From the NCBI RefSeq assembly GCF_003602235.1, contig NZ_QZVS01000091.1, positions 51,005 through 115,004 on the forward strand: 64,000 bases of DNA, given 5' to 3'. A model generated the notes under the pieces. That model was given only the letters and a program-made list of their open reading frames with translations. It searched no databases and was not told where the DNA came from. The DNA comes from Cryobacterium melibiosiphilum (GTDB lineage Bacteria > Actinomycetota > Actinomycetes > Actinomycetales > Microbacteriaceae). Below are positions 1 through 64,000 of this stretch, piece after piece; positions within the stretch are counted from its first letter, which is position 1, and each line of letters starts with the position of its first letter. A program made the position numbers and the translations under genes.

Positions 1-98
1 CGCAGCGGCGCAGTACCCGAGTAGCGGATTCCGTACGCGGCCGGGGTCGGCATCCGCTGGCAAGCAGCCGTGCCGGCCGGCCGTGCCACACGGGCCGG

Positions 99-1829
99 TC
101 AGGCGGTGATGGTGGCGAGCGGCTGGGCCACGACGACGGTGTCGCCCGCCTCGACCGCGAGCTCGGCGAGCACTCCCGCGCGGTGTGCCACCACGGTCGA
201 CTCCATCTTCATCGCCTCGAGCACGAGCACCGGGTCGCCCTCGGCGACGGTCGCACCGGCCTCGATGAGCCACTTGACCACGGTGCCGCCCATCGTCGAG
301 CGCAACTGGGCCGGGTCGACCACTTCAGCAGCGGGCGTCGCGGCCGCCCCCGCGCCACCGGCAAGGGCGGCGAGCAGGTCTGCGGGCAGGCCCAGCGACA
401 TCCGTTTGCCGTCGAGTTCGATCGTGATCGAGCGCCGGGCGACGGATGCCGCCCCGTGGCTGAATTCCGCGTCGTGCGCGAGCCGATCGCCGAAGTCGGT
501 CTCGATCCAGCCGGTGTGCACACCGAGCCGGTCGGTCGCCGTGAAATCGGGGGAGGCCACTACCGCACGGTGGAAGGGCAGCACGGTCGCGACCCCGTGC
601 ACGGTGAATTCGGCCAGCGCGCGGCGGGCGCGGCGCAGGGCCTGCGGCCGATCCGCCCCGGTGACGATCAGCTTGGCGAGCAGCGAGTCGAACTGGCCGG
701 GAATGGTGTCGCCGCTCTGCACTCCGGTGTCGACCCGCACGCCGGGCCCGGTCGGCGGCGCGAACAGCGTCACGGTGCCGGGGGAGGGCAGAAAACCGCG
801 GCCCGGGTCCTCGGCGTTGATGCGAAACTCGAACGCGTGCCCGCGCGGCTCCGGGTCGGCCGAAACCGGCAGCGGTCCGCCGGCGGCGACCTGGAACTGG
901 GCGAGCACGAGGTCGATGCCCGAAGTCTCTTCGGTGACGGGGTGCTCGACCTGGAGACGGGTGTTGACCTCGAGAAATGACACGCTGCCGTCGTCGGCCA
1001 CGAGGTACTCGACCGTGCCGGCGCCGGAATACCCGGCTTCGCGGCAGATCGCCTTCGCCGAGGTGTAGATCTGCTCGCTCTGCGCCGCGGTCAGGAACGG
1101 CGCGGGCGCCTCCTCGACGAGTTTCTGGTTGCGGCGCTGCAGGGAACAGTCGCGGGTGCCCACGACGATGACGGTGCCGTGGCCGTCGGCGAGCACCTGG
1201 GCCTCCACGTGCCGGGGCCGCACCAGGAAGCGTTCGACGAAGCACTCGCCGCGGCCGAACGCCGCCTGCGACTCGCGCACGGCAGAGTCGAAGGATTCCT
1301 CGATGGCGTCGAGCTCCCAGACCACCTTGAGGCCGCGGCCGCCGCCGCCGAAGGCCGCCTTGATGGCGATCGGCAAGCCGAACTGCTCGGCGAACGCGCG
1401 CACCTCGGCGGCCGACTCGACGGTGCTGTCGGTGCCCGGCACGAGCGGGGCCCCGACCCGGATCGCGATCTCCCGGGCCGAGATCTTATTTCCCAGCAGA
1501 CGGATGCTCGCCGGCGACGGCCCGATCCACACCAGTCCGGCGTCGATCACCGCCTGGGCGAAGTCGGCATTTTCAGAGAGAAAGCCGTAGCCCGGGTGCA
1601 CGGCGTCCGCCCCCGCGCGGCGGGCGATCGTGAGCAACTTCTCGACGTTCAGATAGGTGTCGGCGGGGCTCATTCCCTCCAAGGCATATGCTTCGGTGGC
1701 GAGTTGTACGTGCAGGGCATCGGCGTCGGAGTCGGCATAGACCGCGACGGACTCGAGGCCGGCGTCGTCGCAGGCGCGCAGGATGCGCACGGCGATTTCG
1801 CCGCGGTTGGCGATGAGGATCTTCTGCAC
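99..1829 (-). CDS. Biotin carboxylase with C-terminal biotin carrier domain
   Basis: About 576 residues. The N-terminus ([16 protein letters not shown]) is the classic start of biotin carboxylases. A glycine-rich ATP-grasp loop (FGGGGRGLK, about residue 160) follows, then the biotin carboxylase C-terminal domain. The last 75 residues form a biotinyl domain with the biotin attachment motif LEAMKMES. It should carboxylate its own biotin using ATP and bicarbonate. I chose the GTG at 1829 because it lies 4 bases after the preceding gene's stop; an upstream ATG at 1886 would lie inside that gene. It is the last gene of the pxpA-pxpBC cluster, so the carboxyltransferase partner is probably PxpBC rather than a propionyl-CoA enzyme; this pairing is inferred from position. 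Confidence 0.93.
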
Positions 1830-1833
1830 GGTG

Positions 1834-6843: not shown

Positions 6844-7677
6844 GTGCAGATAATTCCCATCGACGATCTCTCCCTGCCCGGACTGGCCGACTACTCCCGG
6901 CTCACCGATGTCGTGCTGCGCCGCCTGTCCGAACCCGAAGACGGGCTCTACATCGCCGAGTCGACCAAGGTCATGATGCGCGCCCTGCAGGCCGGCCACC
7001 GGCCGCGCTCGGTGCTGCTGCAGGAACAGTGGCTGCCCACCGTCGAACCCTTGCTCGCCGACTGGCCCGACGTGCCCGTCTACGTGGGGGAGCCGGCCGT
7101 GCTCGAGACGCTCACCGGCTACAACCTGCACCGCGGTGCCCTCGCGTCGATGCACCGGCCCGCCCTGGCGCCGGTCGAAGACCTGATCCGGGACGCCCGC
7201 CGCCTGGTGATCCTCGAGGACATCGTCGACCACACGAACGTCGGGGCGATCTTTCGCGCCGTCGCCGGCCTCGGCGCCGACGCCGTGCTGATCAGCCCGC
7301 GCTGCGCCGACCCGCTCTACCGCCGCAGCGTGCGCGTGAGCATGGGCACCGTGCTGCAGGTGCCATGGACGCGGCTGCCCGAATGGGACGTGGCGACGCC
7401 GATGCTGCACGCGGCCGGCTTCCACCTCGCCGCCCTCGCGCTGTCCGACGACGCCGTGTCCCTCGAAGATTTCGCAGCGGATGCCCCGGAGCGCCTCGCC
7501 ATCGTCATGGGCACCGAGGGCGACGGCCTGAGCCACCGGGCCCTGGCCGACGCCGACACGGTCGTCACGATCCCGATGCTGCACGGCGTCGACTCCCTCA
7601 ACGTCGCCGCGGCGAGTGCCGTCGCGTTGTACGCGTTGCGCGTGCCGAACACCCCCCGGGTCCGTAGGATCGACTGA
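6844..7677 (+). CDS. TrmH-family RNA 2'-O-methyltransferase (SpoU/TrmH)
   Basis: 277 residues. The N-terminal region is a substrate-binding domain (YSRLTDVVLRRL, YIAESTKVMMRAL). The C-terminal SPOUT domain has DHTNVGAIFRAVAGLG, IVMGTEGDGL and IPMLHGVDSLNVAAA, the knot motifs that bind S-adenosylmethionine. It probably methylates ribose in tRNA or rRNA; the exact nucleotide is not predictable. The start is a GTG with GAAAGG about 10 bases upstream. The gene is divergent from the sirtuin and its stop overlaps the next start (TGATG). Confidence 0.9.
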   Translation: MQIIPIDDLSLPGLADYSRLTDVVLRRLSEPEDGLYIAESTKVMMRALQAGHRPRSVLLQEQWLPTVEPLLADWPDVPVYVGEPAVLETLTGYNLHRGALASMHRPALAPVEDLIRDARRLVILEDIVDHTNVGAIFRAVAGLGADAVLISPRCADPLYRRSVRVSMGTVLQVPWTRLPEWDVATPMLHAAGFHLAALALSDDAVSLEDFAADAPERLAIVMGTEGDGLSHRALADADTVVTIPMLHGVDSLNVAAASAVALYALRVPNTPRVRRID

Positions 7678-8930
7678 TGCCCTACTACACGCGCCGCGAG
7701 ACCTACCGTCGTCGCCGCATCGCGGTCGTCAGCCTCGTCACCGTCGCCCTCGTCGGCATCATCTACGTCGGCGGAACCGGCCTCGCGCCGGTTCCCGTCG
7801 CCGCCGCGACCCTCACCCAGCCGGCCGACGCCACCCAGCCGGCCGTGCAGCCCGCGCTGCCGAGCTTCGGCTCGAGCGCCGTCGGGGCGGTCGGGTTTCC
7901 GGGCGTGCTCGCCGCGAGCGGCTCGACCGGCACCGTGCCGATCGCGAGCATCACAAAGATGGTCACCTCGCTCGTCATTCTCGACGCCAAGCCGCTGAGC
8001 GGCGACGCGCCGGGCCCCGAAATCACCTTCACGGAAGTCGATATCGACTTCTATTACGAGGCCCTGGCCGAGGGCGGTTCGGTCGCGCCCGTGGTCGGCG
8101 GCATGCAGCTCAGCCAGCGCGAGGCGATGCTCGCCATGCTCCTGGCCTCCGGAAACAACTACGCGGAGTCCCTGATCGTCTGGGCCTACGGCTCCGAGCA
8201 GGCGTATCTCTCCGCCGCCGCCGACTGGCTCGCCGAGCACGGCCTCACCGGAACCGTCGTCGCCGACGCGAGCGGCATCTCCTCGAACAGCGTCAGCACC
8301 ACCGCCGACCTGATCGAACTGGCGAAGCTCGTCACCGCGAACCCGGCCCTCGCCTCGATGGTCGCGATCCCCACGATCGACCTGCCGGTGATCGGCACCG
8401 TCGAGAACACCAACACCCTGCTCGGCCCGCTCCCCGGCGTCAGCGACGTCACGGTCACCGGCATGAAGACCGGCACGACGGATGTCGCGGGTTCCTGCCT
8501 GCTCTTCTCCGCCGACATCACGGTCGGCTCCGAAACCGTCACCGTGGTCGGTGTTGTGCTGAACGGTGAGTCCGGGCTCGAGGTGCGACAGGCCGTGGCC
8601 GCGCTGATCGAGAGTATGGCTCCCGGGTTCCAGCAGGTCACCCTCGCCGAGGCGGGGGAGTCGTTCGGCCAGTACTCGACCGCGTGGGGCCAGAGCGCAC
8701 GGGTGGTCGCTGCGGAGGCGGCATCCGCTCTCGTCTGGTCGGACACGGCGATCACCGGCACCGCCGCGGCTGAATCGATGCAGCTCGGCGCCGTCGGCGA
8801 CGACATCGGCAGCCTCGACTTTCTTGTCGGCGACCAGACCGTGACGGTGCCGCTCGAACTCGAGACCGACCTGACCGATCCGGGCCTCGGCTGGCGGATG
8901 GGCCACCCCGGCGAGCTGATCGACGGCTAG
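7677..8930 (+). CDS. D-alanyl-D-alanine carboxypeptidase (PBP5-like, S11)
   Basis: 417 residues with an N-terminal membrane anchor (about 15-34) after a basic RRRR stretch. The three penicillin-binding motifs are present: SITK (S91-K94), SGN (158-160) and KTG (264-266). It should trim the terminal D-alanine of peptidoglycan stem peptides outside the membrane. The region beyond residue 300 has no catalytic motif and may position the enzyme on the wall. It overlaps the methyltransferase stop by one base. It converges on the SGNH hydrolase gene with a 13-base gap. Confidence 0.9.
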   Translation: MPYYTRRETYRRRRIAVVSLVTVALVGIIYVGGTGLAPVPVAAATLTQPADATQPAVQPALPSFGSSAVGAVGFPGVLAASGSTGTVPIASITKMVTSLVILDAKPLSGDAPGPEITFTEVDIDFYYEALAEGGSVAPVVGGMQLSQREAMLAMLLASGNNYAESLIVWAYGSEQAYLSAAADWLAEHGLTGTVVADASGISSNSVSTTADLIELAKLVTANPALASMVAIPTIDLPVIGTVENTNTLLGPLPGVSDVTVTGMKTGTTDVAGSCLLFSADITVGSETVTVVGVVLNGESGLEVRQAVAALIESMAPGFQQVTLAEAGESFGQYSTAWGQSARVVAAEAASALVWSDTAITGTAAAESMQLGAVGDDIGSLDFLVGDQTVTVPLELETDLTDPGLGWRMGHPGELIDG

Positions 8931-8943: not shown

Positions 8944-9732
8944 CTAGGCCTCGGGCTGGCGGAACGGCCCGGCGAGCGGCCGCTTGGGCAGCACGTGATC
9001 GCCCGAGGACTGGTGCCGCACCCGGCGCAACACCCACGGCACCAGGTAGGCGCGCGCCCACGCGAGGTCCTCGGTGCGGGCCTGCCGCCAGGTCGTGCCC
9101 GGCATCGGCTCGGGTTCGCTCGGCGCGAGCGTGTTCGGCACGTTCAACGCCCCGAGCACCAGCCGAGCGACGGTGTGGTGGCCGAGCGCGTTGAGGTGCA
9201 GCCGATCGGGCGCCCACATGCGGGCGTCCTGGATCTCCGCCAGCGACCACAGGTCGGCCACGATGCAGTCGTAGCGGGTGGCGATGGCGCGCAGGTGCTC
9301 GTTATAGATCGCGACCTTGCCGCGAATGCCGCGGAACACGGGGGAGAACCCCACATCGGCGCCGGTGAACAGCACGATCGTCGCGCCGTCGACGCTCAGG
9401 CGCCGCACCGCGTCTTCGCAGCGGGCAGCGATGGCATCCGGGTCGCTGCCGGGACGGATGACGTCGTTGCCGCCGGCGGAAATGGTGATCAGGTCGGGGT
9501 GCAGCGCGAGCGCCGGGTTGATCTGTTCGGTGCTGATTTGGCGGATCAGTTTGCCGCGCACGGCGAGGTTGGCGTAGGCGAAGTCGTCGCTGCCCTGGCT
9601 GAGAACCTCGGCGACCCGGTCGGACCAGCCTCGGTGTCCACCGGGGCTGGTCGGCTCCGGGTCACCGATTCCCTCCGTGAAGGAATCGCCGAGGGCCACA
9701 TAACGCGACCAGGGATGTTGCTGCTTCGTCAT
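8944..9732 (-). CDS. SGNH/GDSL hydrolase
   Basis: 262 residues from the ATG at 9732. Block I (VALGDSFTEG) carries the nucleophile serine near residue 13, block III is SAGGNDV, and block V contains DRLHLNALGHH with the catalytic Asp/His pair. There is no signal peptide, so it acts in the cytoplasm, probably as an esterase or acyl hydrolase of unknown substrate. An upstream in-frame ATG at 9867 was rejected because the added residues are low-complexity and precede the conserved VALGDS block. Confidence 0.9.
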   Translation of the reverse strand: MTKQQHPWSRYVALGDSFTEGIGDPEPTSPGGHRGWSDRVAEVLSQGSDDFAYANLAVRGKLIRQISTEQINPALALHPDLITISAGGNDVIRPGSDPDAIAARCEDAVRRLSVDGATIVLFTGADVGFSPVFRGIRGKVAIYNEHLRAIATRYDCIVADLWSLAEIQDARMWAPDRLHLNALGHHTVARLVLGALNVPNTLAPSEPEPMPGTTWRQARTEDLAWARAYLVPWVLRRVRHQSSGDHVLPKRPLAGPFRQPEA

Positions 9733-15833: not shown

Positions 15834-16571
15834 ATGTGTGGTCGTTACATCATTACCGATACGTCGCCGGACCTTGCGGCCATGTTCGACGTCGAGCACG
15901 AGGGGGAGAACCTCCCCGAGCCGTCGTTCAACATCAAACCCACCGAGCAGATTCCGATCGTGCTCGAGTCCGCCAAGACGGGTGCGGTGGTGCGGCGTCT
16001 CGAGTCGGCCCGCTGGTCGCTCGTGCCGGGCTTCGCGACCGAGGTCAAGTCGCCGTACCCCACCTTCAACGCCCGGTCCGAGACCGCCGCCGAGAAGCCG
16101 ACGTTCAAGACATCCGTCGCCTCGCGCCGCGCCCTGATCCCGGCGACGGGGTACTACGAGTGGCACACCGTGGGCACCGTCAAGACGCCCTACTTCGTGC
16201 ACTCCGATGACGGAATGCCGCTCGCCTTCGCCGGTCTCTACGCCTGGTGGAAGAACCCGGCCCTGGCCGCCGACGATCCGGCCCGCTGGCTGCTCTCCGC
16301 GACGATCCTGACGACGGATGCCCAGGGCCCGCTCCAGCAGATCCACGAACGGATCCCGGTCACCCTGCCCGAAGAATGGTGGGACCAGTGGCTCGACCCG
16401 CACACCGTGGGCGATCACGACCTCGTGACGGCCGCCGTAGAGGCGAGCCGTGAGGTTGCCGCCGAGCTTCAGTTCTACGAGGTCGCACCGGTCGTGGGTA
16501 ACGGTCCCGAGCTCATCGAGCCCGTCGGTCACGGGGCCGAGGCAGCGGCGACGGGCGACTACCAGAACTAG
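15834..16571 (+). CDS. SOS response-associated peptidase (SRAP, YedK/HMCES family)
   Basis: 245 residues. The MCGRY start exposes catalytic Cys2 after methionine removal. FNIKPTEQIPIVLE, WSLVPGF, FNARSETAAEKPTFK, RALIPATGYYEWH and the later TTDAQGPLQQIHERIPV, including the active-site histidine, are the family blocks. SRAP proteins crosslink covalently to abasic sites in single-stranded DNA and so shield them during replication. No LexA box was identified upstream. It lies between DUF3097 (divergent) and a tiny membrane-protein gene. Confidence 0.92.
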   Translation: MCGRYIITDTSPDLAAMFDVEHEGENLPEPSFNIKPTEQIPIVLESAKTGAVVRRLESARWSLVPGFATEVKSPYPTFNARSETAAEKPTFKTSVASRRALIPATGYYEWHTVGTVKTPYFVHSDDGMPLAFAGLYAWWKNPALAADDPARWLLSATILTTDAQGPLQQIHERIPVTLPEEWWDQWLDPHTVGDHDLVTAAVEASREVAAELQFYEVAPVVGNGPELIEPVGHGAEAAATGDYQN

Positions 16572-17675: not shown

Positions 17676-18629
17676 ATGCACGACAGTCCCGCCGCGTCCA
17701 CCCCCTACGAAGTGCTCGGAGTGAGCCCGTCCGCCAGTGAAGACGAGCTACGACGGGCGTACCGCCAGATGCTGCGCCGCACGCACCCCGACGTCGGCGG
17801 CAGTGCTGCGCAGTTCCATGCCGTGCAGGTGGCCTGGGAACGCATCGGCAACCCGAAGGATCGTGCGGCCTACGACCGCGGCCGCTTCGACGGAACGGAT
17901 GCCTCAGCCAGCGGACACTCCTATTCGGCGTCGGCCGGGGCATCCGCTGCCCGCAGCCCGAGCAGTGCGAGTAACGCGTCGAGCATGAAAGCCCGGATGC
18001 ACGGCCACCCGGGTGGACAGGCCCGCCAGCGCTACCTGTCGTTGCTGCGCGAATGGGCCGGCCGCGGCACGACCGTCGACGACCCCTACGCTCCCGACCT
18101 GGTGCGCCGGGCACCACGCGAGATTCGGCACTACCTGGCCAAGGCCCTCGCCGAAGAGGCCACCGCGCAGCTGGTTTCCGGGCTCGGCATCGGTTTCACC
18201 GCCTGGCACGACGTGGACCCCGGCCGCGGCAGCGACAAGCTCGACCACGTGGTGCTCGGTCCGGCGGGCCTGTTCGGCATCCTCTCCGAAGACTGGGGCG
18301 GCGCCGTCGAGCTGAGACGCGGCGAACTGGTGGGGGAGTCCCTCGGCGAGACGACCCCGATGGACAACCTGCAGGCCAGCGCGAAGTCCCTGACCCGCAC
18401 CCTCAAGGTGCGGTTCACCGCGCTGATCGTGGTGCTGCCCGATGACGCCCTGCCGGAACCGCTCGTCGTGCCGGCGCGGGGCCGGCGCCCGACGACGCTC
18501 GCCGTGCCGCGCTCCCGCCTGATCGGGCTGCTGCGTAATGGCCTGCCCGGCATGGACCGGGGCAGCTTCGACAAGGTCTTCGACCTGCGCAGCCGCCTGC
18601 AGGAGGGTATCCGCTTCGTCGAGGGCTAG
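17676..18629 (+). CDS. J-domain protein with C-terminal NERD-like domain
   Basis: 317 residues. Residues about 9-70 form a J domain (PYEVLGVSPSASEDELRRAY; HPD in RTHPDVGG), which should stimulate DnaK ATPase. A Ser/Ala-rich linker follows to about 110. From about 150 the protein resembles a nuclease-related (NERD) domain: SDKLDHVVLGPAGLFGILSE corresponds to the usual DHVVVGPGGVFVIDTK. The usual lysine of that motif is missing, so nuclease activity is doubtful. It has none of the DnaJ zinc fingers, so it is a specialised co-chaperone rather than the housekeeping DnaJ (present at 28 kb). Confidence 0.8.
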   Translation: MHDSPAASTPYEVLGVSPSASEDELRRAYRQMLRRTHPDVGGSAAQFHAVQVAWERIGNPKDRAAYDRGRFDGTDASASGHSYSASAGASAARSPSSASNASSMKARMHGHPGGQARQRYLSLLREWAGRGTTVDDPYAPDLVRRAPREIRHYLAKALAEEATAQLVSGLGIGFTAWHDVDPGRGSDKLDHVVLGPAGLFGILSEDWGGAVELRRGELVGESLGETTPMDNLQASAKSLTRTLKVRFTALIVVLPDDALPEPLVVPARGRRPTTLAVPRSRLIGLLRNGLPGMDRGSFDKVFDLRSRLQEGIRFVEG

Positions 18630-20243: not shown

Positions 20244-20609
20244 ATGATAACGCGACACGAAGTGGCCCTGCGCCTGGACATACCCCTCGAGATGGCCAAG
20301 CGCCACGACATTCCGTCGCGCATGGGGGAGGCCCAGTTCGCCAAGCTCGAGAGCGATCCGCCGGCCTGGCTGCTGCAGTCCCGCGCGAACCGCACCGGCA
20401 AGAAGCCGGTCTGGATTCAGCTCGAGTGCTCCATCTGCGGCGATACCGAGGCGGCACGCCCCAAGAAGTGGTGGCCGGAGTTCACCTATGTGAGCTGTTC
20501 GCACCACGGCGCCGACGAACTGCCCGAGGCGGAGTCGGGTCTCGGCCGCACCGAGTATGACGGTGTCGGCACCCACTTCATCGGCATCGTCGACGCCCCG
20601 CCGCAATAA
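20244..20609 (+). CDS. Small putative zinc-binding protein, unknown family
   Basis: 121 residues starting at an ATG preceded by GAGGGAG (CCTGAGGGAGATG). I do not recognise the family. CSICGD near residue 61 and CSHHG near residue 85 could give a Cys3His zinc site. The C-terminus (GVGTHFIGIVDAPPQ) is hydrophobic. The gene sits 29 bases ahead of the amidohydrolase and may be cotranscribed with it. Confidence 0.7.
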   Translation: MITRHEVALRLDIPLEMAKRHDIPSRMGEAQFAKLESDPPAWLLQSRANRTGKKPVWIQLECSICGDTEAARPKKWWPEFTYVSCSHHGADELPEAESGLGRTEYDGVGTHFIGIVDAPPQ

Positions 20610-23848: not shown

Positions 23849-24496
23849 ATGCGTCGCTCCACCTTCACCGAATCGGCCGTGACCTACGGCGCGATCGGGG
23901 GCACCCTCGCCCCCGACCTGATGACGTACCCGCCCAAGGGCTACCGTCCGATCGAGGTCGAAGTGCGCCTCGGCAGCGGCGACGAACGCTTTCAGGCCGC
24001 GACCAAGCTGCTCATGACGTGGGGCGTGCAGCGGGGGAGCGGCATGACCGTCACCGACCTCGGCACCGGCACCGGTGTGCAGTACACCGGGGTCGAGTTC
24101 GGCGCCGACGGGGCACCGAAGACGGATGCCCTCAAGACCGTCGCCGAGGACACCTTCGCCGACGACGGCACCCCCTACATCGTCAACGGCATGACCGCCG
24201 AGCTCAGCTTCCCGGTGGGGCCCCTCACCGTGAAGGCGCCCATACGGGTCGTGTATGTGATCGATGAGCCCACCCGCGTGGGCTTCGCCTACGGCACCAT
24301 GGCGGGGCATCCGGAGAGCGGCGAAGAATCCTTCATCGTCGACAAGCGTGACGACGATTCGGTCTGGCTGTCGATCCGTGCCTTCTCGCGCCCGAGCACC
24401 TGGAAATACCGGCTGGTGTGGCCGTTCCTGCGCCTGCAGCAGAACCGCTTCACGAAGCGGTACCTCAAGGCCCTGCACCCCGTCGGGGCGCTCTAA
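23849..24496 (+). CDS. DUF1990 family protein
   Basis: 215 residues. Matches the DUF1990 family (SAVTYGAIGGTLAPD, YPPKGYRPIEVEVRLGSGD, VYVIDEPTRVGFAYGTMAGH, GEESFIVDKRDDDSVWLSIR, FSRPSTWKYRLVWPFLRLQQ). The family often forms a single SRPBCC-like domain of unknown function and is commonly found between lepA and hemW in this group. It starts 4 bases after the lepA stop. Confidence 0.85.
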   Translation: MRRSTFTESAVTYGAIGGTLAPDLMTYPPKGYRPIEVEVRLGSGDERFQAATKLLMTWGVQRGSGMTVTDLGTGTGVQYTGVEFGADGAPKTDALKTVAEDTFADDGTPYIVNGMTAELSFPVGPLTVKAPIRVVYVIDEPTRVGFAYGTMAGHPESGEESFIVDKRDDDSVWLSIRAFSRPSTWKYRLVWPFLRLQQNRFTKRYLKALHPVGAL

Positions 24497-24500: not shown

Positions 24501-25727
24501 GTGGCCGGTCCGCATCCCCTCGGCGACCCCGCCCCGCTCGACGGGCTGTTGCCGGCATCCGCCGCCGTCGACGCCGGAGACCGCGAGTTCAGCGTCTACC
24601 TGCACGTGCCCTTCTGCCGGGTGCGGTGCGGCTACTGCGACTTCAACACCTACACCGCGACCGAACTGCGCGGTGTGAAGCAGAGCGACTACGCGAGCCA
24701 GGCCGTGCTCGAGGTCGAGTCCGCCGGGCGCGTGCTCATCGAGTCCGGCGTTCCCGCCCGCCCGGTCTCGACCGTATTCTTCGGCGGCGGCACACCAACC
24801 CTGCTGCCGGTCGGGGACCTCACCCGCATGCTGCACGCCGTTCGTGACCAGTGGGGTTTCGTGCCCGGCGCCGAGATCACGACCGAGGCGAACCCGGACT
24901 CCGTCGACGCCGCCTACCTGCAGGGCCTTGCCGACGCCGGCTTCACCCGGGTGTCGTTCGGCATGCAGTCCGCCGTGCCGCGCGTGCTCGCGACCCTCGA
25001 GCGCACCCACGATCCCGAGCGGGTTCCGCTCGTCGTGCAGTGGGCCCGCGATGCCGGCCTCGACGTCAGCCTCGACCTGATCTACGGCACCCCGGGGGAG
25101 ACCGTCGCCGACTGGCGCACCAGCCTCGAGTACGCCATCAATCAGGCCCCCGACCACATCAGCACCTATTCGCTCATCGTCGAAGAGGGCACCAAACTCG
25201 CCCGCCAGATTCGCCGCGGCGACGTGGCCGCGATCGACGACGACACCCAGGCCGAGTTCTACGAACTCGCCGACGAACTACTCGGCGCCGCCGGGTTCCA
25301 CTGGTACGAGGTCAGCAACTGGGCGACGGATGTCTCCCACGAGTCCCGGCACAACCTCGCCTACTGGCGCAGTCACGACTGGTGGGGAGTGGGCCCGGGC
25401 GCGCACAGCCACGTCGGCGGTGTGCGCTGGTGGAACGCCAAGCACCCCGCGGCCTACGCCGAACGGGTGCTCGCCGGGCATTCCCCGGCGGTCGGCCGGG
25501 AAACCCTCGACGCCGAAACCCGCGAGGTGGAACGGGTGCTGCTGCTCAGCCGCATCCGCACCGGCATCCCGATCGCGTCGCTTACGGAGCACGGCCGGCA
25601 CGAGATCGCCGGCCTGATCGCCGACGAACTCGTGAACGCGCGGGCCGCCATCCACGGCGACCTGGAGCTGACCCTGCGCGGCCGGCTGCTCGCCGACGCG
25701 GTCGTGCGCCGCATCCTGCCGGACTAG
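24501..25727 (+). CDS. hemW: Radical SAM heme chaperone HemW
   Basis: 408 residues from the GTG at 24501, 4 bases after the previous stop. The radical SAM cluster motif CRVRCGYC (C39, C43, C46) follows SVYLHVPF. VFFGGGTPTLL, FGMQSAVPRVL and LIYGTPGETVADW are HemW/HemN-like segments. It lacks the extra N-terminal cysteine of true coproporphyrinogen dehydrogenase HemN. HemW transfers heme to target proteins and does not itself oxidise coproporphyrinogen. A longer frame opens upstream inside DUF1990 but has no family similarity. Confidence 0.93.
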   Translation: MAGPHPLGDPAPLDGLLPASAAVDAGDREFSVYLHVPFCRVRCGYCDFNTYTATELRGVKQSDYASQAVLEVESAGRVLIESGVPARPVSTVFFGGGTPTLLPVGDLTRMLHAVRDQWGFVPGAEITTEANPDSVDAAYLQGLADAGFTRVSFGMQSAVPRVLATLERTHDPERVPLVVQWARDAGLDVSLDLIYGTPGETVADWRTSLEYAINQAPDHISTYSLIVEEGTKLARQIRRGDVAAIDDDTQAEFYELADELLGAAGFHWYEVSNWATDVSHESRHNLAYWRSHDWWGVGPGAHSHVGGVRWWNAKHPAAYAERVLAGHSPAVGRETLDAETREVERVLLLSRIRTGIPIASLTEHGRHEIAGLIADELVNARAAIHGDLELTLRGRLLADAVVRRILPD

Positions 25728-40261: not shown

Positions 40262-41112
40262 AAGCGAAGTCCCCCCTGAACCCGTCAGCGCTGAACCCGT
40301 TCGCGTCGAAAACCCCCAAGCCGTTCACCCACAAGGACGCCGTCGCGTTCAAGCCGCTCGACTGGACCGGTCTGTACCCGCCCGCGCTGCCCGCGAAGGT
40401 CGTTCCGAACCACGTCGCCGTGGTCATGGATGGCAACGGGCGCTGGGCGAACGGCCGAGGCCTGACCCGGGTCGAGGGCCACAAGGCGGGGGAGGCCGCG
40501 CTGCTCGACGTCGTCGCCGGTGCGATCCAGCTCGGAGTGAAGCACCTCAGCGTCTATGCCTTCAGCACCGAGAACTGGAAGCGTTCCCCCGATGAGGTGC
40601 GCTTTCTGATGGGCTTCAACCGCGACGTGCTGCACCGCCGGCGGGACCAGCTCAACGAGTGGGGGGTGCGTGTGCGGTGGGCCGGCCGGAAGCCCCGGCT
40701 GTGGGCATCCGTCATCACCGAGCTGCAGTACGCCGAACAGCTCACGGCCGGCAACGACGTGCTCACGCTCACCATGTGCGTGAATTACGGCGGTCGCACC
40801 GAGCTGGCGGATGCCGTGCGCGCCCTGGCCGAGGACGTCGCGGCCGGCCGGCTCAAGCCCTCCGGCGTCACCGAGAAGGCCATTGCCCGGCACCTGTACA
40901 TTCCGGAGATGCCCGACGTGGACCTCTTCGTGCGCAGCTCGGGGGAGCAGCGCACCAGCAATTTTCTGCTCTGGCAGAGCGCCTACGCCGAAATGGTCTT
41001 TCTCGACACCCTCTGGCCGGACTTCACCCGGGTCGACCTGTGGCGCGCCGTGGAACTCTACGCCGCCCGCAACCGCCGCTACGGCGGGGCGATCGACACG
41101 CCCACCAGCTGA
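40258..41112 (+). CDS. uppS: Isoprenyl (undecaprenyl) diphosphate synthase
   Basis: 284 residues. Family signature [12 protein letters not shown] with catalytic Asp near residue 58, [28 protein letters not shown] and [20 protein letters not shown]. It makes the long-chain cis-prenyl carrier used for peptidoglycan and wall polymers. The first 45 residues are an unusually long Pro/Lys-rich extension. recO-uppS is a conserved actinobacterial pair and the start overlaps recO. Confidence 0.94.
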
Positions 41113-46274: not shown

Positions 46275-47909
46275 ATGACACCGCCGCACACCACGCCTCG
46301 CCGACCCGCGCTGCGCATCGTGATGGTGACCGGCCTCGTCGCCACCCTCGCGCTCACCGGGTGTTCGCCGCAGCTGCCCGTGATCGACGCCGACGAACCG
46401 ATCACGGTGGGCACGACCGGCACCGTGACGGCCCTCGACCCCGCGGCCGCCGGCGACGCCGGATCGTTTGCGGTACAGTCGCAGGTCTTTCCGTACCTGC
46501 TCGCCAGCCCCTACGGCACCGCCGACCTCGAGCCCGACATCGCCCAGTCCGCGGGCTTCACCTCGGCGACCGAGTACACCGTGGTGCTGAAACCCGACCT
46601 GGACTGGGCCAACGGCAACGCCCTCACCGCCTCCGACGTCGTCTTCAGCTTTGACCGCCAGCGCACCATCAACGCGGGGGCCGGCGCGGGCGCGCCGCTG
46701 GCCAACCTCACGAGCACCGTGGCCGTCGACGAGACGACCGTCGTCTTCACCCTCGACACCGAAAACGACGCCCTCTTCCCCCGGGTGCTCGCCGGGGCGG
46801 CCGGCGCCATCGTCGACGAGCAGACCTTCGCGGCGGATGCCCTCACCAACGACGACGACATCGTCGACGCGGAAGCCTTCGCCGGCCCTTATACACTCAC
46901 GCGCTTCGACCGCGACAACATGCTCGAGTACCGGGCGTTCGACGGCTACCAGGGACTCATCGGTCAGGCCCGCACCGAGAACATCACCGTCAAGTACTAC
47001 GCCGATGCGGCCAACCTGAAACTCGACGTGCAGGAGGGGAACATCGACGTGGCCCTCGGCGCGCTCTCCGCCTCCGACATCGACGACCTGCGCGGCAACG
47101 ACGCCGTCACCCTCGTCGAGGCGCCGGGCGGGGACATCCGCTTTCTCGCTTTCGACCCGAACAGCCAGCCGTTTGGCGCCGCCACGCCCGAAGCGGATGC
47201 CGCGAAGGCCCTCGCGGTGCGGGTGGCCGTTGCCGAGCTGATCGACCGGGATCAGCTCGCCGCCCAGGTCTACACGGGCAGCAAGCTGCCGCTGTATTCG
47301 GCCGTGCCGACCGGGCTGGTCGGAGCGACCGACACCCTGACCGGGTTCTACGGCGACGGGGATGGCGGCCCTGACCCCGAACAGGCCGCCGAAACCCTCA
47401 CCGCCGCGGGCATCACCCTGCCGGTCGCGTTCACGTTGCACTTCAGTTCCGAGCTGTACGGGCCGGAATCCGCGGCCGAATACGCCCTGCTCGAAGCCCA
47501 GCTCGAGGCCACCGGCGCGTTCGCGGTAACCCTGCAGGACACCGGCGCGGCCCAGTACGCCGTCGAGCGCCAGGCGGATGCCTACCCCGTCTACCAGTCC
47601 GGCCGCGAGCCCGCCTACGCCGACGCCGACAGCTACCTGCGGCCGGTGTTCGCCGACGACGCCGTCGTCGCTGCCGGGATCGACCCGGCGCTGCTCGACC
47701 TGATAGCCACGCAGGCGACCACGGTCGACGCGGGGGAGCGCACCGCCCTGATCGAACAGATCCAGGACGACCTCGCCGCGGCACTGCCGACGCTGCCGCT
47801 GCTGCAGGGCACCCAGGTCGCCGTGACCGGCCCGGACATCACCGGACTCGACGACACCCTCGACCCGTCCCAGACCTTCCGCTACGCCGCCCTCACCCGG
47901 GCACCCTAG
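46275..47909 (+). CDS. ABC peptide-type substrate-binding lipoprotein (SBP_bac_5)
   Basis: 544 residues. Signal peptide with lipobox LALTGC (Cys30). Family 5 binding-protein features: TVVLKPDLDWANGNALTASD and VVFSFDRQRTINAG near residue 110, FAGPYTLTRFDRDN, and the lobe-closing VAVAELIDRDQLAAQVYTG. It should bind di- or oligopeptides or similar solutes outside the membrane. GGAGGG precedes the ATG. No permease gene follows, only one ATPase gene after a repeat region, so the transporter looks incomplete. Confidence 0.92.
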   Translation: MTPPHTTPRRPALRIVMVTGLVATLALTGCSPQLPVIDADEPITVGTTGTVTALDPAAAGDAGSFAVQSQVFPYLLASPYGTADLEPDIAQSAGFTSATEYTVVLKPDLDWANGNALTASDVVFSFDRQRTINAGAGAGAPLANLTSTVAVDETTVVFTLDTENDALFPRVLAGAAGAIVDEQTFAADALTNDDDIVDAEAFAGPYTLTRFDRDNMLEYRAFDGYQGLIGQARTENITVKYYADAANLKLDVQEGNIDVALGALSASDIDDLRGNDAVTLVEAPGGDIRFLAFDPNSQPFGAATPEADAAKALAVRVAVAELIDRDQLAAQVYTGSKLPLYSAVPTGLVGATDTLTGFYGDGDGGPDPEQAAETLTAAGITLPVAFTLHFSSELYGPESAAEYALLEAQLEATGAFAVTLQDTGAAQYAVERQADAYPVYQSGREPAYADADSYLRPVFADDAVVAAGIDPALLDLIATQATTVDAGERTALIEQIQDDLAAALPTLPLLQGTQVAVTGPDITGLDDTLDPSQTFRYAALTRAP

Positions 47910-48138: not shown

Positions 48139-48980
48139 CGCACGGCGGGGCATCCGCGGTGCCCATCGTGGCCAGCGATCTCACGATCGAATATCCGCCG
48201 CACGGTGCCAGTCCCGCCTGTGTCGCCGTGCACGGGCTGAACCTGCGCCTCGCGCCGGGGGAGGTGCTCGGCCTGCTTGGGGAGAGCGGATCGGGCAAGA
48301 GCACCATCGCTCGGGTGCTCTCCGGTGACGGCTTCGTCACCGACCCCGGGGCCGGCGTGCGCCCCGAAATCACCGGCGGCGACGCGACCGTGCTCGGGCA
48401 TCCCCTGCGCCGCATCAAGCGGCGCGCCCTGGCGCGGCTGACCTATGAGGTCGGCCTGCTCGCGCAGGACGCCGCAGACCTGCTGCCGCCGACCCTGACC
48501 GTGGCGGAGATCGTCGCGGTACCGATCCTGGAGCGTGACGACCGGTACAACCGCAAAGCGCTCGGCGTGAAAGTCGCCACCATGGTCGACGCCGTACGGC
48601 TGCCGCTCGCGATGCTGAGCAAATTCCCCTACGAACTGTCGGCCGGCCAACGCCAGCGCGTGGCCCTCGCCCGGGCCCTCGTTTTCGAACCGGCGCTACT
48701 GATCGCCGACGAACCCACCGCGGGCGTCGATGTGCTCGTGCGCGACGCCGTGATCGACGTCATCGCCGAGCTGCAGCGGGAACGCCTGTTCTCGGCCCTC
48801 GTGATCAGCAGCGACCTCGCCGTGCTGCGCCGGGTCGCCGACCGCATCGGGGTTATGCACCAGGGAGTGCTCGTGGGCCTCGGCACGATCGACGAGGTCT
48901 TCGCCGACCCGTGGCATCCGTACGTGGCGCAGCTCGCAGCCGCCCTGACGCCCGCGGACGACACCGATGACGATGAGTGA
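48135..48980 (+). CDS. ABC transporter ATP-binding protein (DppF/OppF-like)
   Basis: 281 residues from the GTG at 48135. Walker A GESGSGKST (49-57), Q-loop region VGLLAQDAADLLPPTL, signature ELSAGQRQRVALARAL, Walker B LLIADEPTAGVD and the H-loop region LVISSDLAVLRRVADRIGVM, where the usual switch histidine is replaced by serine/aspartate (ISSDLAV versus ITHDL). The C-terminal WHPYVAQLAAAL tail is that of peptide-importer ATPases. Only one ATPase and no permease are present, unusual for this family. Confidence 0.88.
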   Translation: MTHGGASAVPIVASDLTIEYPPHGASPACVAVHGLNLRLAPGEVLGLLGESGSGKSTIARVLSGDGFVTDPGAGVRPEITGGDATVLGHPLRRIKRRALARLTYEVGLLAQDAADLLPPTLTVAEIVAVPILERDDRYNRKALGVKVATMVDAVRLPLAMLSKFPYELSAGQRQRVALARALVFEPALLIADEPTAGVDVLVRDAVIDVIAELQRERLFSALVISSDLAVLRRVADRIGVMHQGVLVGLGTIDEVFADPWHPYVAQLAAALTPADDTDDDE

Positions 48981-50289: not shown

Positions 50290-51162
50290 GTGACCCCCGC
50301 ACTCCTCACGAACATCGCCCTCACGGCCGCCGTGGTCTTTCTCGCGCTCTGGATCATCACCCTCGTGCGCTCACGCCGACGGGTCTTCACCCGCAACGCC
50401 GACGAGCGGATGCGCATCGACCTCGAGCTCTCGCTCGCCGAGCAGCAGGGGCGGCTGGGCATCATCCGCGAACTGCAGGATGTCGCCGTGCTCTCGATCG
50501 CCCGGCTGATCACCCGCGCCGAGGGCGCCCGCTACATGGCCGAAAGCGACCCGTCGACCGCCGTGCGCGCCGCCGCGAACATCGTCGACGAGGGCCGCGT
50601 CGCCCTGGCCGACATGCGCCGCGTGCTCACCATCGCCCGCGAGGGGGAGGCCGTCGCCGCCGCCCAGCCCGGGCCGCAGTCCGCCCGCGACCTGTTCCGT
50701 GTTATGCGCGACGCCGGCCTCGTCGTGAACTTCACCGAGTCGGGGGAGCGCTTCGAGTTGAAGCCCGGCGCCGAACTGGCGATCTACCGCATCCTGCAGA
50801 GCTCCCTCGCGAACGCGCTCAAGCACGGTGGCCTCGGCACCGAGGCGCGCGTGTCGTTCGCCTGGACCCAGGACGGCCTGCAGATGCTGATCGACGACGA
50901 CGGCATCCGCGCCGCCGCCCGCCGCGACAGCTCGAGCGACGACGAGGTCGCCGCGCGCACCGCGTACACGATCGACGACGACCTCAAGGCCCTCAGCGAG
51001 AGCATCGCCGGTGCCGGCATCACCCAGATGCGCGAGCGCGCCCAGCTCTTCGGCGGCGTCTTCAACGCCGGCACGGTTCCCGGCCTCGGCTTCTCGGTCT
51101 CCGCCGTGTTTCCGTCGCTGCGCTTTCACAACGGCGTGCACGGCGTCGACCTGTCGCGTTAG
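50290..51162 (+). CDS. Sensor histidine kinase-like protein lacking the phospho-acceptor His
   Basis: 290 residues. One N-terminal transmembrane helix (about 5-27), then a dimerisation region where the usual RELHDVVAHSL reads RELQDVAVLSIARL: glutamine at position 63 replaces the phospho-accepting histidine. The HATPase part has an N-box SSLANALKHGG and a G-box GITQMRERAQLFGGVF with GLGFSVSAVFP. It may be a kinase-fold regulator that binds ATP without autophosphorylation. No response-regulator gene is adjacent. GTG start; azlC begins immediately after its stop. Confidence 0.85.
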   Translation: MTPALLTNIALTAAVVFLALWIITLVRSRRRVFTRNADERMRIDLELSLAEQQGRLGIIRELQDVAVLSIARLITRAEGARYMAESDPSTAVRAAANIVDEGRVALADMRRVLTIAREGEAVAAAQPGPQSARDLFRVMRDAGLVVNFTESGERFELKPGAELAIYRILQSSLANALKHGGLGTEARVSFAWTQDGLQMLIDDDGIRAAARRDSSSDDEVAARTAYTIDDDLKALSESIAGAGITQMRERAQLFGGVFNAGTVPGLGFSVSAVFPSLRFHNGVHGVDLSR

Positions 51163-52257: not shown

Positions 52258-52830
52258 TCAGCCCTCGAGGTCGTCGACGCCGGGCAGCCAGCTCAGCCCG
52301 GGCACGCCCCAGCTGCGCTTGCGGGTGATCTTCGCCGCGATCTTGGCGTGCGCGTGCTCGAGGCGGTCCACGTAGAGGGTGCCGTCGAGGTGGTCGTACT
52401 CGTGCTGAAAAATTCGGGCCAGCCAGCCGTCGGCTCGAATCTCGAACGGCTTCTGGTCGAGGTCCACGGCCCGCAAAATGGCCGACTGCGCCCGGCGCAG
52501 CGGAAAGCGTTCCCCGGGAAACGACAGGCAGCCCTCGTCTTCGTTGGGGTCGTCCTCGTCGGCCTCGCCCGCGGGCACCGGGGTGATCCACAGCTCGGGG
52601 TTGATCGCCACGCCGCGCCAGAGCACGTCCTGGTCGTCTTCGAAGCTGTAGGTGAACAGGCGCAGTCCCACACCCACCTGCGGCGCGGCCAGTCCCACCC
52701 CCGGCGCCTCATCCATCGTTTCGAACATATCCGTCACCAGAGTGCGCAGCGTGTCGTCGAATTCGACGACGGATGCTGCGGGGGAGTGGAGAACGGGATC
52801 CCCGGAAATTACTATCGATCGCACGGCCAT
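52258..52830 (-). CDS. def: Peptide deformylase
   Basis: 190 residues from the ATG at 52830. All three PDF motifs: GVGLAAPQ, EGCLSFPG (cysteine metal ligand) and HEYDHLDG (two histidine ligands and the catalytic glutamate). It removes the N-formyl group from nascent proteins. An in-frame ATG at 52950 would overlap the divergent transporter gene and was rejected. Its ATG directly abuts the -35 box of the divergent transporter promoter. Confidence 0.95.
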   Translation of the reverse strand: MAVRSIVISGDPVLHSPAASVVEFDDTLRTLVTDMFETMDEAPGVGLAAPQVGVGLRLFTYSFEDDQDVLWRGVAINPELWITPVPAGEADEDDPNEDEGCLSFPGERFPLRRAQSAILRAVDLDQKPFEIRADGWLARIFQHEYDHLDGTLYVDRLEHAHAKIAAKITRKRSWGVPGLSWLPGVDDLEG

Positions 52831-53961: not shown

Positions 53962-55221
53962 GTGCCAGACTCGACCGATTTGCAGAGCGAATCGTCGCCC
54001 GAAGCCCAGGCTCGCAGAGCCAAGCCGATCCGCGTGCTCATCGCCGCCGACACCTTCGCACCCGATGTGAACGGTGCCGCCCGGTTCGCTGAGCGCCTCG
54101 CCGCCGGGCTCGTCGCCCGCGGCCACGAGGTGCAGATCATGGCACCGGCCGCCTCGCGCAAGCACGGCAGCTGGATGGAAATGCACGAGGGCCAGCCGAT
54201 GATGGTGCACCGCCTGCACAGCTGGCGCTGGTACCCGCATGACTGGCTGCGTTTCGCCCTGCCGTGGATCGTGCGCCGCGAAAGCCGCCTCATCCTCGAC
54301 TCGTTCAAGCCCGACGTCGTGCATTTCCAGTCCCACATCAACGTCGGGCGCGGCGTGTCGATCGAAGCCGAAGAACGCGGCATCCGCATGATCGGCACGA
54401 ACCACTTCATGCCCGAGAACATGGTCAAGTTCTCGCTGATTCCACTCGGCTTCCAAGACCGAGTGATCAAGGCCGCATGGCGGGCCGCCCGACGCACCTT
54501 CGGCCGGGCCGCCGCCGTTACCACGCCCACCCTGCGCGCCGCCCAGTTTTTGAAGAAGTACACCGGCCTCACCGAGGTGCACGCCGTGTCCTGCGGCATC
54601 GACGCCGACAACTACTCGCCCAACTTCGAGCCGCGCACCGAGAACCGCATCCTCTTCGTCGGCCGGGTCACCGGTGAGAAGCAGATCGACGTGCTGCTGC
54701 AGGCGGCGGCCCTGCTCGCCCCGTCGCTGAAGGCTCAGATCGAGATCGTCGGCGGGGGAGACCAGAAGCGCAACCTCGAGCACCTGGCCGACACCCTCGG
54801 CATCCGCTCTCGCGTCACCTTCACCGGCTACGTGACGGATGCCGAGCTGCGCGCGGCTTACTCCCGCGCCACCGTGTTCGCGATGCCCTCGATCGCCGAA
54901 TTGCAGAGCATCGCCACGATGGAGGCGATGGCCTCGGGCCTGCCCGTCGTCGCCGCGAACGCGATGGCGTTGCCGCACCTCGTGCACGATGAGCAAAACG
55001 GATACCTGTTCGCCCCCGGCAACGCCCAGGACCTCGCCGACAAGCTCACGACCGTGCTGACAGCGGATGCCGCGAACCTCGAGGCCCTGAAGCGCGAGTC
55101 ACTCAAGCTGATCGCCACGCACGACATCAAGCGCACGCTCAACACATTCGAATGCCTGTATCGTGGTGAGCCGGTGGCCCTGCTGGTCGCCGACGATGCC
55201 GCGACACACGCAACGGACTAG
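53962..55221 (+). CDS. GT4 family glycosyltransferase
   Basis: 419 residues, GTG start. Two Rossmann halves: the N-terminal acceptor domain starts VLIAADTFAPDVNGAARFAE and contains VVHFQSHINVGRG and GTNHFMPENMV. The donor domain has ILFVGRVTGEKQIDVLLQAA, VGGGDQKRNLEHLADTLG and the E-x7-E segment AELQSIATMEAMASGLP. GDP-mannose-type donors are common for relatives, so a role in wall or lipid glycosylation is plausible. It ends 17 bases before tRNA-Met. Confidence 0.9.
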   Translation: MPDSTDLQSESSPEAQARRAKPIRVLIAADTFAPDVNGAARFAERLAAGLVARGHEVQIMAPAASRKHGSWMEMHEGQPMMVHRLHSWRWYPHDWLRFALPWIVRRESRLILDSFKPDVVHFQSHINVGRGVSIEAEERGIRMIGTNHFMPENMVKFSLIPLGFQDRVIKAAWRAARRTFGRAAAVTTPTLRAAQFLKKYTGLTEVHAVSCGIDADNYSPNFEPRTENRILFVGRVTGEKQIDVLLQAAALLAPSLKAQIEIVGGGDQKRNLEHLADTLGIRSRVTFTGYVTDAELRAAYSRATVFAMPSIAELQSIATMEAMASGLPVVAANAMALPHLVHDEQNGYLFAPGNAQDLADKLTTVLTADAANLEALKRESLKLIATHDIKRTLNTFECLYRGEPVALLVADDAATHATD

Positions 55222-57829: not shown

Positions 57830-57871
57830 GGGTGCCTCCGGCCTCAATTATGTGCGTTAACACATAGCCCG

Positions 57872-58301: not shown

Positions 58302-58379
58302 TGATGAGGCCTCCTGCTCGCGATGGGCCCAGCGTAGTGGGCGCTTGTCGGCGCCGAACGATAGAACGGTTGCTGCCGA

Positions 58380-58952: not shown

Positions 58953-58954
58953 GC

Positions 58955-59395: not shown

Positions 59396-59485
59396 GGGAC
59401 TGGGCCTCCTGAGATATGTGTATGGTCGGACCGTTGTGAACCGTGCCTACTTGGAGGTGCGCTGTGCGTTCCGTGCGGGAACACG

Positions 59486-59529
59486 TGGAAATTCATTCCA
59501 AAAATGAAAATAACTGGAAACTTCATCCA
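59486..59529 (+). promoter_or_regulatory. Two operator candidates upstream of the RpiR gene
   Basis: TGGAAATTCATTCCA (59486-59500; inverted TGGAA / TTCCA) and TGGAAACTTCATCCA (59515-59529) are 29 bases apart in the same orientation. They lie 55-100 bases before the regulator start. RpiR-family proteins typically bind AT-rich dyads and control their own operon, so these are good candidates for the island regulator's sites. Confidence 0.5.
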
Positions 59530-59582
59530 CCGTTCGAGTGGCCGTCACGGATCGTTCACACGGGATTCCTAGCGTGATCATC

Positions 59583-60461: not shown

Positions 60462-60485
60462 CAGCTGAGAACCAGAGAGGAACAC

Positions 60486-62603: not shown

Positions 62604-63469
62604 AGGGGATGCGAATCGGCGGCTGGGCGCTCGCTCTGCCTGCGATGATCCTCATCGGTGTCTTTCTCTTGCTGCCGGGCCTGCTCGCGCTCGTGGGAAG
62701 CCTGTTTCGGATCGATCTCGGTGACCAGACAGTGTGGCGCTGGGCTGGACTGGAGAACTACAGCGGGCTCTTCTCTGACCCCGCGGTCATGCAGGCCATC
62801 GGCAATACCGTGCTGTACGCAGCGATGACGATCATTCCAAGTCTCGTGTTGGGCTTGGGCTTAGCGCTGCTGGTGTCTAATTTTCGGCGGGCCAGGCCAG
62901 TACTACAGGTACTCCTGTTCTTGCCCTTCGCCACGAATATGGTGGCGATGGCAGTGGTCTTTCGCTGGATCTTCGCCAATCACGGCGGCTTCGTGAACGA
63001 AACACTCGCGCTCGTCGGCTTCGCCCCGATCAACTTCCTCGGTGATTCCCAGTACGCGTTGATCACCGTGGCACTCATCGGCATCTGGCGGCTCACCTCG
63101 TTTGTCATGATCTTTTACCTGGCGGGCCTGACGAGCATCCCTACGGCCTTGTACGAGGCCGCCGCCGCCGATGGGCTCGGCCCCTGGGTGACGTTTCGGC
63201 GTGTGACACTTCCGCTTCTTCGACCGACGACAGTGTTTGCGACCGTCATGGCCGTGCTCCAGTCAGTCCAGGTCTTTGACACCATCGACGTACTCACCGG
63301 CGGCGGCCCACTCGGGGCGACAGAAACCATCCTGACTATGACCTGGCGGCTTGGCTTCGTCTACTTTGACCTCGGTCAAGCGGCAGCCCTGTCGACGCTG
63401 CTGCTGGTCGTCCTCGTGCTCATCGGCGTCCTGCGCCGCAGGGCCTTCCTCGAAGACAAGGAGCACTAA
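62600..63469 (+). CDS. ABC sugar transporter permease (MalF/UgpA type)
   Basis: 289 residues with six helices. Cytoplasmic EAA motif YEAAAADGLGPWVTFRRVTL, where the ATPase docks, and FLPFATNMVAMAVVFRWIF. The GTG overlaps the phosphoesterase stop. Binding-protein and ATPase genes are not in the window; they may lie beyond 64000. Confidence 0.93.
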   Translation: MKGMRIGGWALALPAMILIGVFLLLPGLLALVGSLFRIDLGDQTVWRWAGLENYSGLFSDPAVMQAIGNTVLYAAMTIIPSLVLGLGLALLVSNFRRARPVLQVLLFLPFATNMVAMAVVFRWIFANHGGFVNETLALVGFAPINFLGDSQYALITVALIGIWRLTSFVMIFYLAGLTSIPTALYEAAAADGLGPWVTFRRVTLPLLRPTTVFATVMAVLQSVQVFDTIDVLTGGGPLGATETILTMTWRLGFVYFDLGQAAALSTLLLVVLVLIGVLRRRAFLEDKEH

Positions 63470-64000
63470 TGGGCGCCACACGCCGCTCAGGCCGACTGGT
63501 CGGCCGGAGCTTTCAGATTCTGGCTGTCGGAGTATTCGCTTTCATCTCGGTATTTCCGGTCATCTGGATGCTGCGGATGGCCGTGTCTCCGGCCGACGAG
63601 GCCGTGCTCGATGGATTGCAGCTGTTGCCCGGATCCTTCGACCTCGGCAACTTCACCCGCGCGTGGGAGGAGGCAAACCTCGGACAAGCCATGTTGGTTG
63701 GGACGCTTGTCACGCTGGGAATCCTGGCCGCGCAGCTCGTGACGGTGATACCTGCGGCCTACGCGTTCGCCAAGTTGCGCTTCCGCGGCCGGGATGCTGC
63801 CTTCGCGGTCGTGCTCGCCTGCCTCCTGATTCCCACGCAGGCGATAGCGCTTCCGCTCTACCTCGGTATCGGCTCGGTCGGGCTCGCGAACACGTTCGCT
63901 GCGCTCGTCCTGCCCTTCACAACCAGCGCCATCGGAATCTTTATGGTGCGCCAGCACATGGTGACGATACCCGACGCGCTCCTTGAAGCCGCGAAGGCCG
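63469..64000 (+). CDS. ABC sugar transporter permease (MalG/UgpE type), partial
   Basis: ATG overlaps the previous stop (TAATG). About 177 residues are visible before the window ends: MGATRRSGRLVGRSFQILAV, a helix with FPVIWMLRMAVSP, the periplasmic LPGSFDLGNFTRAWEEANLG and the start of the EAA loop (TIPDALLEAAKA). It is the inner-membrane partner of the permease before it. Confidence 0.93.
   Translation, partial: MGATRRSGRLVGRSFQILAVGVFAFISVFPVIWMLRMAVSPADEAVLDGLQLLPGSFDLGNFTRAWEEANLGQAMLVGTLVTLGILAAQLVTVIPAAYAFAKLRFRGRDAAFAVVLACLLIPTQAIALPLYLGIGSVGLANTFAALVLPFTTSAIGIFMVRQHMVTIPDALLEAAKA

Follow-up and report, generated by a model that had tools for sequence, protein, structure and literature searches.

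GGGGGAG in Cryobacterium melibiosiphilum: a polar word of actinobacterial chromosomes that converges on dif and is probably read by FtsK

Introduction

Why should a short word occur on only one strand of a chromosome segment, in genes of either direction? This question is raised by a 64,000-nucleotide stretch of Cryobacterium melibiosiphilum (contig NZ_QZVS01000091.1, positions 51,005 to 115,004; the whole stretch is called the window below), in which exact counting finds GGGGGAG 22 times on the plus strand and its complement, CTCCCCC, not once. A sequence-only reading had noticed this pattern and proposed an FtsK-orienting motif or one of the AIMS (architecture imparting sequences) type, with a Chi-type recombination signal as a further option; all 22 of its positions proved exact.

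The word and its polarity are already known. Corynebacterium genome papers present (T/C)GGGGGAG as actinobacterial AIMS (PMC2830990, PMC3219685, PMC3164646), and one of them counts 856 such octamers on the leading and 61 on the lagging strand of C. aurimucosum, uses them to find dif and credits Hendrickson and Lawrence 2006 for AIMS (PMC2830990). The motif of the window is the same, and the AIMS-type proposal was therefore right (PMC2830990, PMC3164646). What does such a word do? We argue, with good confidence, that GGGGGAG is an actinobacterial AIMS that works as a guide of the KOPS (FtsK-orienting polar sequences) type and would be read by FtsK.

Results

The number of copies in the window is near chance: 15.8 are expected (mean, both strands pooled), and at least 22 were reached in 9 of 100 shuffles. 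The finding is thus polarity, not abundance. The polarity of GGGGGAG (two-sided binomial P = 4.8e-7) has the smallest P among the 7,630 7-mers compared, which makes it the top strand-skewed 7-mer of the window; corrected for that number of words, P is ~0.004. As the sequence-only reading had it, C precedes 16 of the 22 copies, and CGGGGGAG stands 16:0 (plus:minus). The six other words made up of six G and one A show only weak skew (2:1, 6:2, 3:2, 3:1, 7:3 and 1:2). Since the plus strand is slightly C-rich (GC skew -0.033), base skew works against the bias. On the whole contig (C92, 146,818 bases) the count is 38:0.

Which way does the plus strand point? The C. melibiosiphilum genome is a draft of 97 contigs, and the window was placed through relatives. 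Our genus set comprises 57 genomes, this one included; a dif core, sought at up to two mismatches, was found in all 57, and so was a DnaA-domain match, the best match in one genome (G029) being weak (7.4e-12). We placed window segment 40258..49983 (plus strand) in 11 same-genus genomes of one to three contigs, one of which is 83% complete (G065) and one of which was assumed to be circular (G015). In 11 of 11 the strand equivalent to the window's plus strand reads away from dnaA and toward dif, and the segment lies ~83 to 394 kb from dif. The plus strand is therefore the oriC-to-dif strand, and within its replichore the window lies in the part near the terminus.

The polarity flips at dif itself, as had been predicted. 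In the C. melibiosiphilum genome dif lies at C85:33687-33706, and the 60 kb of this contig carry GGGGGAG 13:0 (plus:minus) to the left of dif and 0:11 to the right; the final plus copy ends 39 bases before the dif core and the first minus copy follows 367 bases after it. Other genomes of the genus show the same. We collected dif flanks from 36 genomes (this one and 35 of the 56 others, picked mostly for contig room, three of them short on one side; 694 kb), and found 391 convergent copies and 2 divergent ones, against 57:37 for the reversed word. These sites are not independent: 390 of them fall into 133 groups at 60% identity over 60 flanking bases, 75 of the groups being single. The predicted rise in density toward dif was also found. 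Within 10 kb of dif the 36 flanks hold 0.56 copies per kb, and ~1 per kb in the nearest kilobase, compared with ~0.20 per kb over the whole C. melibiosiphilum genome (937 in 4.71 Mb).

To see the polarity at a larger scale we used a same-genus genome assembled as a single contig (G006, 4.07 Mb), sampled as 20 evenly spaced 20-kb stretches (0.4 Mb). Here GGGGGAG stands 75 leading to 6 lagging and the reversed word 20:13, at a leading-strand GC skew of 0.000. When words with at least 20 copies are ranked in skew by oriented counts, GGGGGAG comes first of the 7-mers and CGGGGGAG (45:1) first of the 8-mers. The word thus reads away from dnaA, the polarity at oriC that had been predicted. Twenty stretches are too coarse a sample to trace abundance and bias over the long way from oriC to the last 10 kb. 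All 6 lagging copies lie between 2.88 and 3.71 Mb (stretches L015, L016, L017 and L019), in part of one replichore; this may be acquired or inverted DNA.

Could gene direction or codon usage produce such a bias? We called genes with a simple codon-usage gene caller in three sets: the window, the 20 stretches of G006 and the dif flanks of the 36 genomes. In the window, 15 copies lie inside genes called on the plus strand (7086..7092, 8654..8660, 15902..15908, 18332..18338, 20324..20330, 24033..24039, 25094..25100, 29295..29301, 40488..40494, 40941..40947, 47732..47738, 48257..48263, 50643..50649, 50742..50748 and the final one, 54754..54760). Seven copies had been assigned to minus-strand genes: four of them are indeed there (549..555, 780..786, 9340..9346 and 35069..35075), and the other three (26182..26188, 36005..36011 and 52780..52786) lie in no called gene; the word itself is on the plus strand in every case. 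The conclusion drawn from them, that codon usage is no explanation, holds with four. Leading:lagging counts are 247:3 in co-oriented genes, 115:0 in opposing genes and 126:5 outside called genes, and we reject the gene-strand explanation on this polarity in genes of both directions and outside called genes.

The broader idea of a by-product, with GGGGGAG polarity arising from mutational strand bias, GC skew or codon usage, meets the same obstacle, and a second one. Leading-strand GC skew is -0.033, 0.000 and -0.024 in the window, in G006 and in the 120 dif records described below, where GGGGGAG stands 22:0, 75:6 and 478:4, and in all three its six permutations are far weaker in strand bias. 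The GC-skew explanation is thus rejected for these three sets. It is not rejected for two genomes outside the class, in which GGGGGAG stands 46:11 (G080, one 260-kb block, oriented by majority) and 81:24 (G089): there GGGGGAG does not exceed other G-rich words in skew, and GC skew runs the same way, so nothing motif-specific is shown. For the genus of the window the by-product idea is contradicted by the data and we give it almost no credence. An unsupervised concordance ranking of 7-mers was dropped in favour of oriented counts, because words that follow gene direction ranked above GGGGGAG (rank 3 of 5,295 in G006, 9 of 4,334 in G101, 78 of 4,910 in G218, 65 of 5,734 in G080 and 15 of 2,752 in G089).

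The sequence-only reading had spoken of a motif "of this lineage", which turned out too narrow. A scan of named genomes for the exact dif core gave at least 120 stretches, and all 120 listed ones were counted: GGGGGAG is convergent 478 times and divergent 4 times, the reversed word 77:54. It occurs near dif in 113 of the 120, from many actinomycete families; 109 of these are purely convergent and 4 have one divergent copy each, and the seven records that lack it are L048, L073, L111, L120, L134, L136 and L141. By title the listed records include Corynebacterium, Mycobacterium, Nocardia, Rhodococcus, Micromonospora, Amycolatopsis, Frankia, Microbacterium, Arthrobacter, Nonomuraea, Geodermatophilus, Kribbella and Actinomyces, among others, and two records of Acidimicrobiia type (L128 and L156) hold GGGGGAG 5:0 each.

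The same flanks show which positions matter. The first G can be replaced by A (49:4 in the genus, 183:8 over the 120 listed records) and the last G by C (84:5 and 104:20) or T (44:6 and 60:17). Changes within GGGGA lose the bias mostly or fully, the strongest remaining being GGGAGAG (54:19) and GGGGAAG (75:30). Near dif in the genus the base 5' of the word is C in 67% and T in 18%, and rarely G (4%). The fuller form of the motif is thus [C/T]-[G>A]GGGGA[G>C,T].

Two side observations concern these records. Copies are sparser in the 500 bases nearest to dif (0.38 per kb) than in the next kilobase (0.78 and 0.76 per kb). The actinobacterial dif core also turns up in two records titled Bacillus and Proteobacteria (L086, SPQJ01000009.1, and L120, SXOX01000251.1); since L086 has GGGGGAG 8:0 as well, it is probably from an actinomycete and wrongly labelled.

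Farther out, a dif core at up to one mismatch is present in 25 of 246 genomes drawn evenly from the phylum. In family f45 all listed copies (the first 100 of G109, the first 50 of G189) lie on one strand and read away from dnaA; in G038, of the same order, GCGGGGGAGC occurs 17 times (5 plus, 12 minus), in two blocks that are both directed away from dnaA. G218 also shows polarity, of a less specific kind (GGGGGAG 65:9, GGGGAGG 63:12, GGGAGGG 59:16, with the orientation taken from the skew itself); when G218 is oriented by dnaA, at 2.288 Mb, one stretch with 1 plus and 4 minus copies changes side and GGGGGAG becomes 62:12.

Is the machinery for such a guide in place? The C. melibiosiphilum genome has an FtsK with a gamma domain (C46:10027-10200), a XerD model match over the cut-off on C74 and dif on C85, which is the equipment of a KOPS host. 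All 57 genomes of the genus set match the XerD model, 52 of them above the cut-off; only the cut-off is telling, since the looser level also matches in 14 of 14 control genomes. FtsK-gamma was found in all 35 genomes examined, 3 of them of the genus. The domain is similar to the solved FtsK-gamma structures 2j5o, 2ve8 and 2ve9. Its recognition segment reads GFAKAGRLMD here and GYNRAARMIE in 2j5o and 2ve8, from P. aeruginosa. This difference may explain the differing word, and we counted it as no evidence. A co-variation of gamma domain and motif (GFAKAGR in the class, GYNRAAR in the solved structures) was considered and is not claimed, because the pattern is not clean: enrichment of GGGGGAG over the reversed word is low despite the same gamma in G301 (1.27), G037 (1.20) and genus g25 (1.11 to 1.28).

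The neighbourhoods of the window's last copy and of dif deserve a word of their own. That no copy lies beyond 54.8 kb is true inside the window. It does not extend past it: after the copy that ends at 54,760 the contig has five further ones, the first at the equivalent of 67,601, all on the plus strand and in low-GC DNA, so the later DNA is not motif-free. The gap of 12.8 kb (54761-64000 and on to the equivalent of 67600, L024) has reduced GC and starts near a tRNA-Met gene (55239-55313), and copies resume in equally low-GC DNA. It may be an island at the tRNA; no integrase family was among the matches of the ten frames scanned in the gap region. Beside dif, on C85, an ABC-ATPase frame of 868 aa (L027:13792-16398, minus strand), predicted to be UvrA-like from Pfam matches, has its end 86 bases away from the dif core. 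Many of the 120 listed records include little sequence on that side; 17 match this stretch over at least 300 bases, and dif may lie beside the same ABC-ATPase gene across orders. Among those 120, the best match to the 60 kb around this dif is Cryobacterium frigoriphilum (85% over 2.4 kb), followed by a Cryobacterium metagenome bin, C. gelidum and Mycetocola. Second dif-like cores with altered centres (GATAATAATGATTATGTCAA in several) occur in G000 (C31:13589) and on C2 of G072, G016, G003 and G015. Some are on second contigs, which may be plasmids, and are perhaps plasmid dif sites or mark mobile elements that use dif.

Discussion

GGGGGAG has the properties by which AIMS are recognized. It is a strand-biased short word of the leading strand, by the counts in the window, by its orientation in the 11 relatives and by the counts in G006, and both its abundance and its bias go up toward the terminus (within 10 kb of dif, 391:2 at 0.56 per kb; for comparison, ~0.20 per kb over the whole C. 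melibiosiphilum genome and 75:6 in the G006 sample). Compared with the actinobacterial AIMS in print, G(A/T/C)GGGGGA and (T/C)GGGGGAG, it has the same core, preceding base, leading-strand bias and use in marking dif; nothing essential differs, and the genome here is of another genus. What we add is the flip at dif in 36 same-genus genomes and 120 listed records, the tolerance at each position and the case of a linear chromosome, discussed below.

Which reader would such a word serve? According to PMC5357621, KOPS are bound by FtsK-gamma; they are found on the leading strand, become more frequent toward dif and point to it from both sides in zones of ~10 kb. By its orientation from oriC to dif and its switch at dif GGGGGAG has the layout of this functional class. 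Like the KOPS of E. coli and Vibrio (GGGNAGGG) it is G-rich, on the leading strand, directed to dif and enriched near it, in a host with dif, XerD-like genes and FtsK-gamma. The sequences differ: GGGGGAG needs a G at the fourth position and no final GG, whereas the E. coli word takes any fourth base.

Other pumps of the FtsK family read guides of the same kind. The SpoIIIE recognition sequence (SRS) of B. subtilis is GAGAAGGG and the L. lactis KOPS is GAAGAAG. These also differ in sequence from GGGGGAG, and around dif in the 120 listed records they are counted 27:16 and 115:125.

Taken together, an FtsK-orienting role is the likeliest function of GGGGGAG. Each chromosome has hundreds of copies, most of them on the leading strand, which point 5' to 3' from oriC toward dif and change strand there. 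In the mechanism that we propose, the winged-helix gamma domain of FtsK would load on the word in one orientation at the closing septum, and the pump would then move toward dif, clear the terminus region and bring two dif sites together for XerCD. The role would be that of KOPS, with a sequence unlike GGGNAGGG.

Two other readers have to be weighed. The first is a nuclease of RecBCD or AddAB type: GGGGGAG would be a Chi-like hot spot that stops it at broken forks and is oriented by replication for that reason. Chi of E. coli is GCTGGTGG, and Chi is likewise biased to the leading strand. Around dif in the 120 listed records, GCTGGTGG itself is counted 76:116. A Chi role also predicts orientation on a linear-type chromosome that appears to lack dif. 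However, RecC (PF04257) and AddB (TIGR02773) gave no match in 57 of 57 same-genus genomes, AdnAB not being searched; in the 14 control genomes PF04257 matched in 1 (E. coli) and TIGR02773 in 6, over the cut-off in 1. Moreover, near-absolute bias with a higher density at dif, as in our 391:2, is given as the mark of AIMS as opposed to Chi in PMC5993296. The Chi option of the sequence-only reading is thus disfavoured, and we consider it quite improbable. The second would leave FtsK uninvolved and make GGGGGAG a polarity mark for another oriented process, such as SMC loading or release, the replisome or a termination protein. In its favour, function is deduced here from position, and changes in FtsK-gamma do not track the motif cleanly. 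Against it, FtsK is known to end its travel at dif, which is exactly where the switch falls, and the few kb around dif have the highest copy density; such a reader seems unlikely to us.

Several observations weigh against a guide read by FtsK and converging on dif. Away from the terminus polarity is not strict. On the contig that carries dnaA at 108 kb (C57) the sampled stretches give 7:7 (plus:minus): the two between 20 and 70 kb total 2:6 and the two between 90 and 126 kb total 5:1, which puts this switch only approximately at dnaA. Other stretches of the same genome give 1:9 (C97), 6:1 (C96), 5:0 (C95) and 1:7 (C94), and among the first 100 copies listed strands are mixed on the small contigs C30, C31 and C34; on C39, in the same list, 7 minus copies are followed by 4 plus. 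The 120 listed records were chosen by an exact dif core, which leaves lineages with another dif unrepresented. Gamma domain and word can also part company: G080 has an actinomycete-like GFARAGR segment with an enrichment of 0.88 and no specific polarity, and G218 has GYSRAGR yet stands at about 65:9. Nor does sequence homology to the KOPS tested elsewhere back the FtsK reading: GGG[ACT]AGGG is unpolarized in the 120 listed records (65:61) and in G006 (24:23), with a weak exception in the genus dif flanks (54:19). Finally, convergence on dif is not the sole arrangement of GGGGGAG. One genus of the class (g25) contributes 7 genomes of 7.1 to 9.9 Mb to the draw of 246, and none of the 7 has a dif core at up to one mismatch, two mismatches not being tried. 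In one of them, a single contig of 9,170,506 bases (G101), the word reads away from dnaA 74:12 over 20 evenly spaced stretches, and no dif was detected.

This last genome is instructive. As linear chromosomes do, it has ends that repeat each other in inverted orientation, over at least 4.2 kb at 100% identity, and dnaA lies mid-contig, at 4,502,161; this linear-type chromosome is most likely of Streptomyces. Its six permutations of the word give 16:19, 47:43, 62:47, 42:43, 63:49 and 10:11, and the recognition segment of its FtsK-gamma is identical to that of the window genus. Polarity here comes without a detected dif, and therefore does not need one. It would fit an FtsK that clears chromosome arms, and would fit Chi or another replication-linked reader equally well. 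We give an even chance to a wider proposal: one FtsK guide code, common to most actinomycetes and read by a gamma recognition segment of their own (GFAKAGRLMD rather than GYNRAARMIE), which selection would maintain also where the chromosome is linear and lacks dif, the word there pointing from oriC to each telomere.

Our literature search, with subscription papers mostly outside its coverage, found no FtsK test of GGGGGAG and no named actinobacterial KOPS. FtsK is actively studied in Corynebacterium and mycobacteria (PMC11898615, PMC13277299), and GGGGGAG is a ready substrate for a binding test. With 99% convergence around dif, it can also be of use in finding dif in draft assemblies and in spotting inversions. 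Its polarity on a linear-type chromosome without detected dif is a natural experiment on what FtsK is for. If the wider proposal is true, the guide motif serves the pumping of chromosome arms out of the closing septum; arm clearance by FtsK would then be separate from dimer resolution, and dif only one possible end point.

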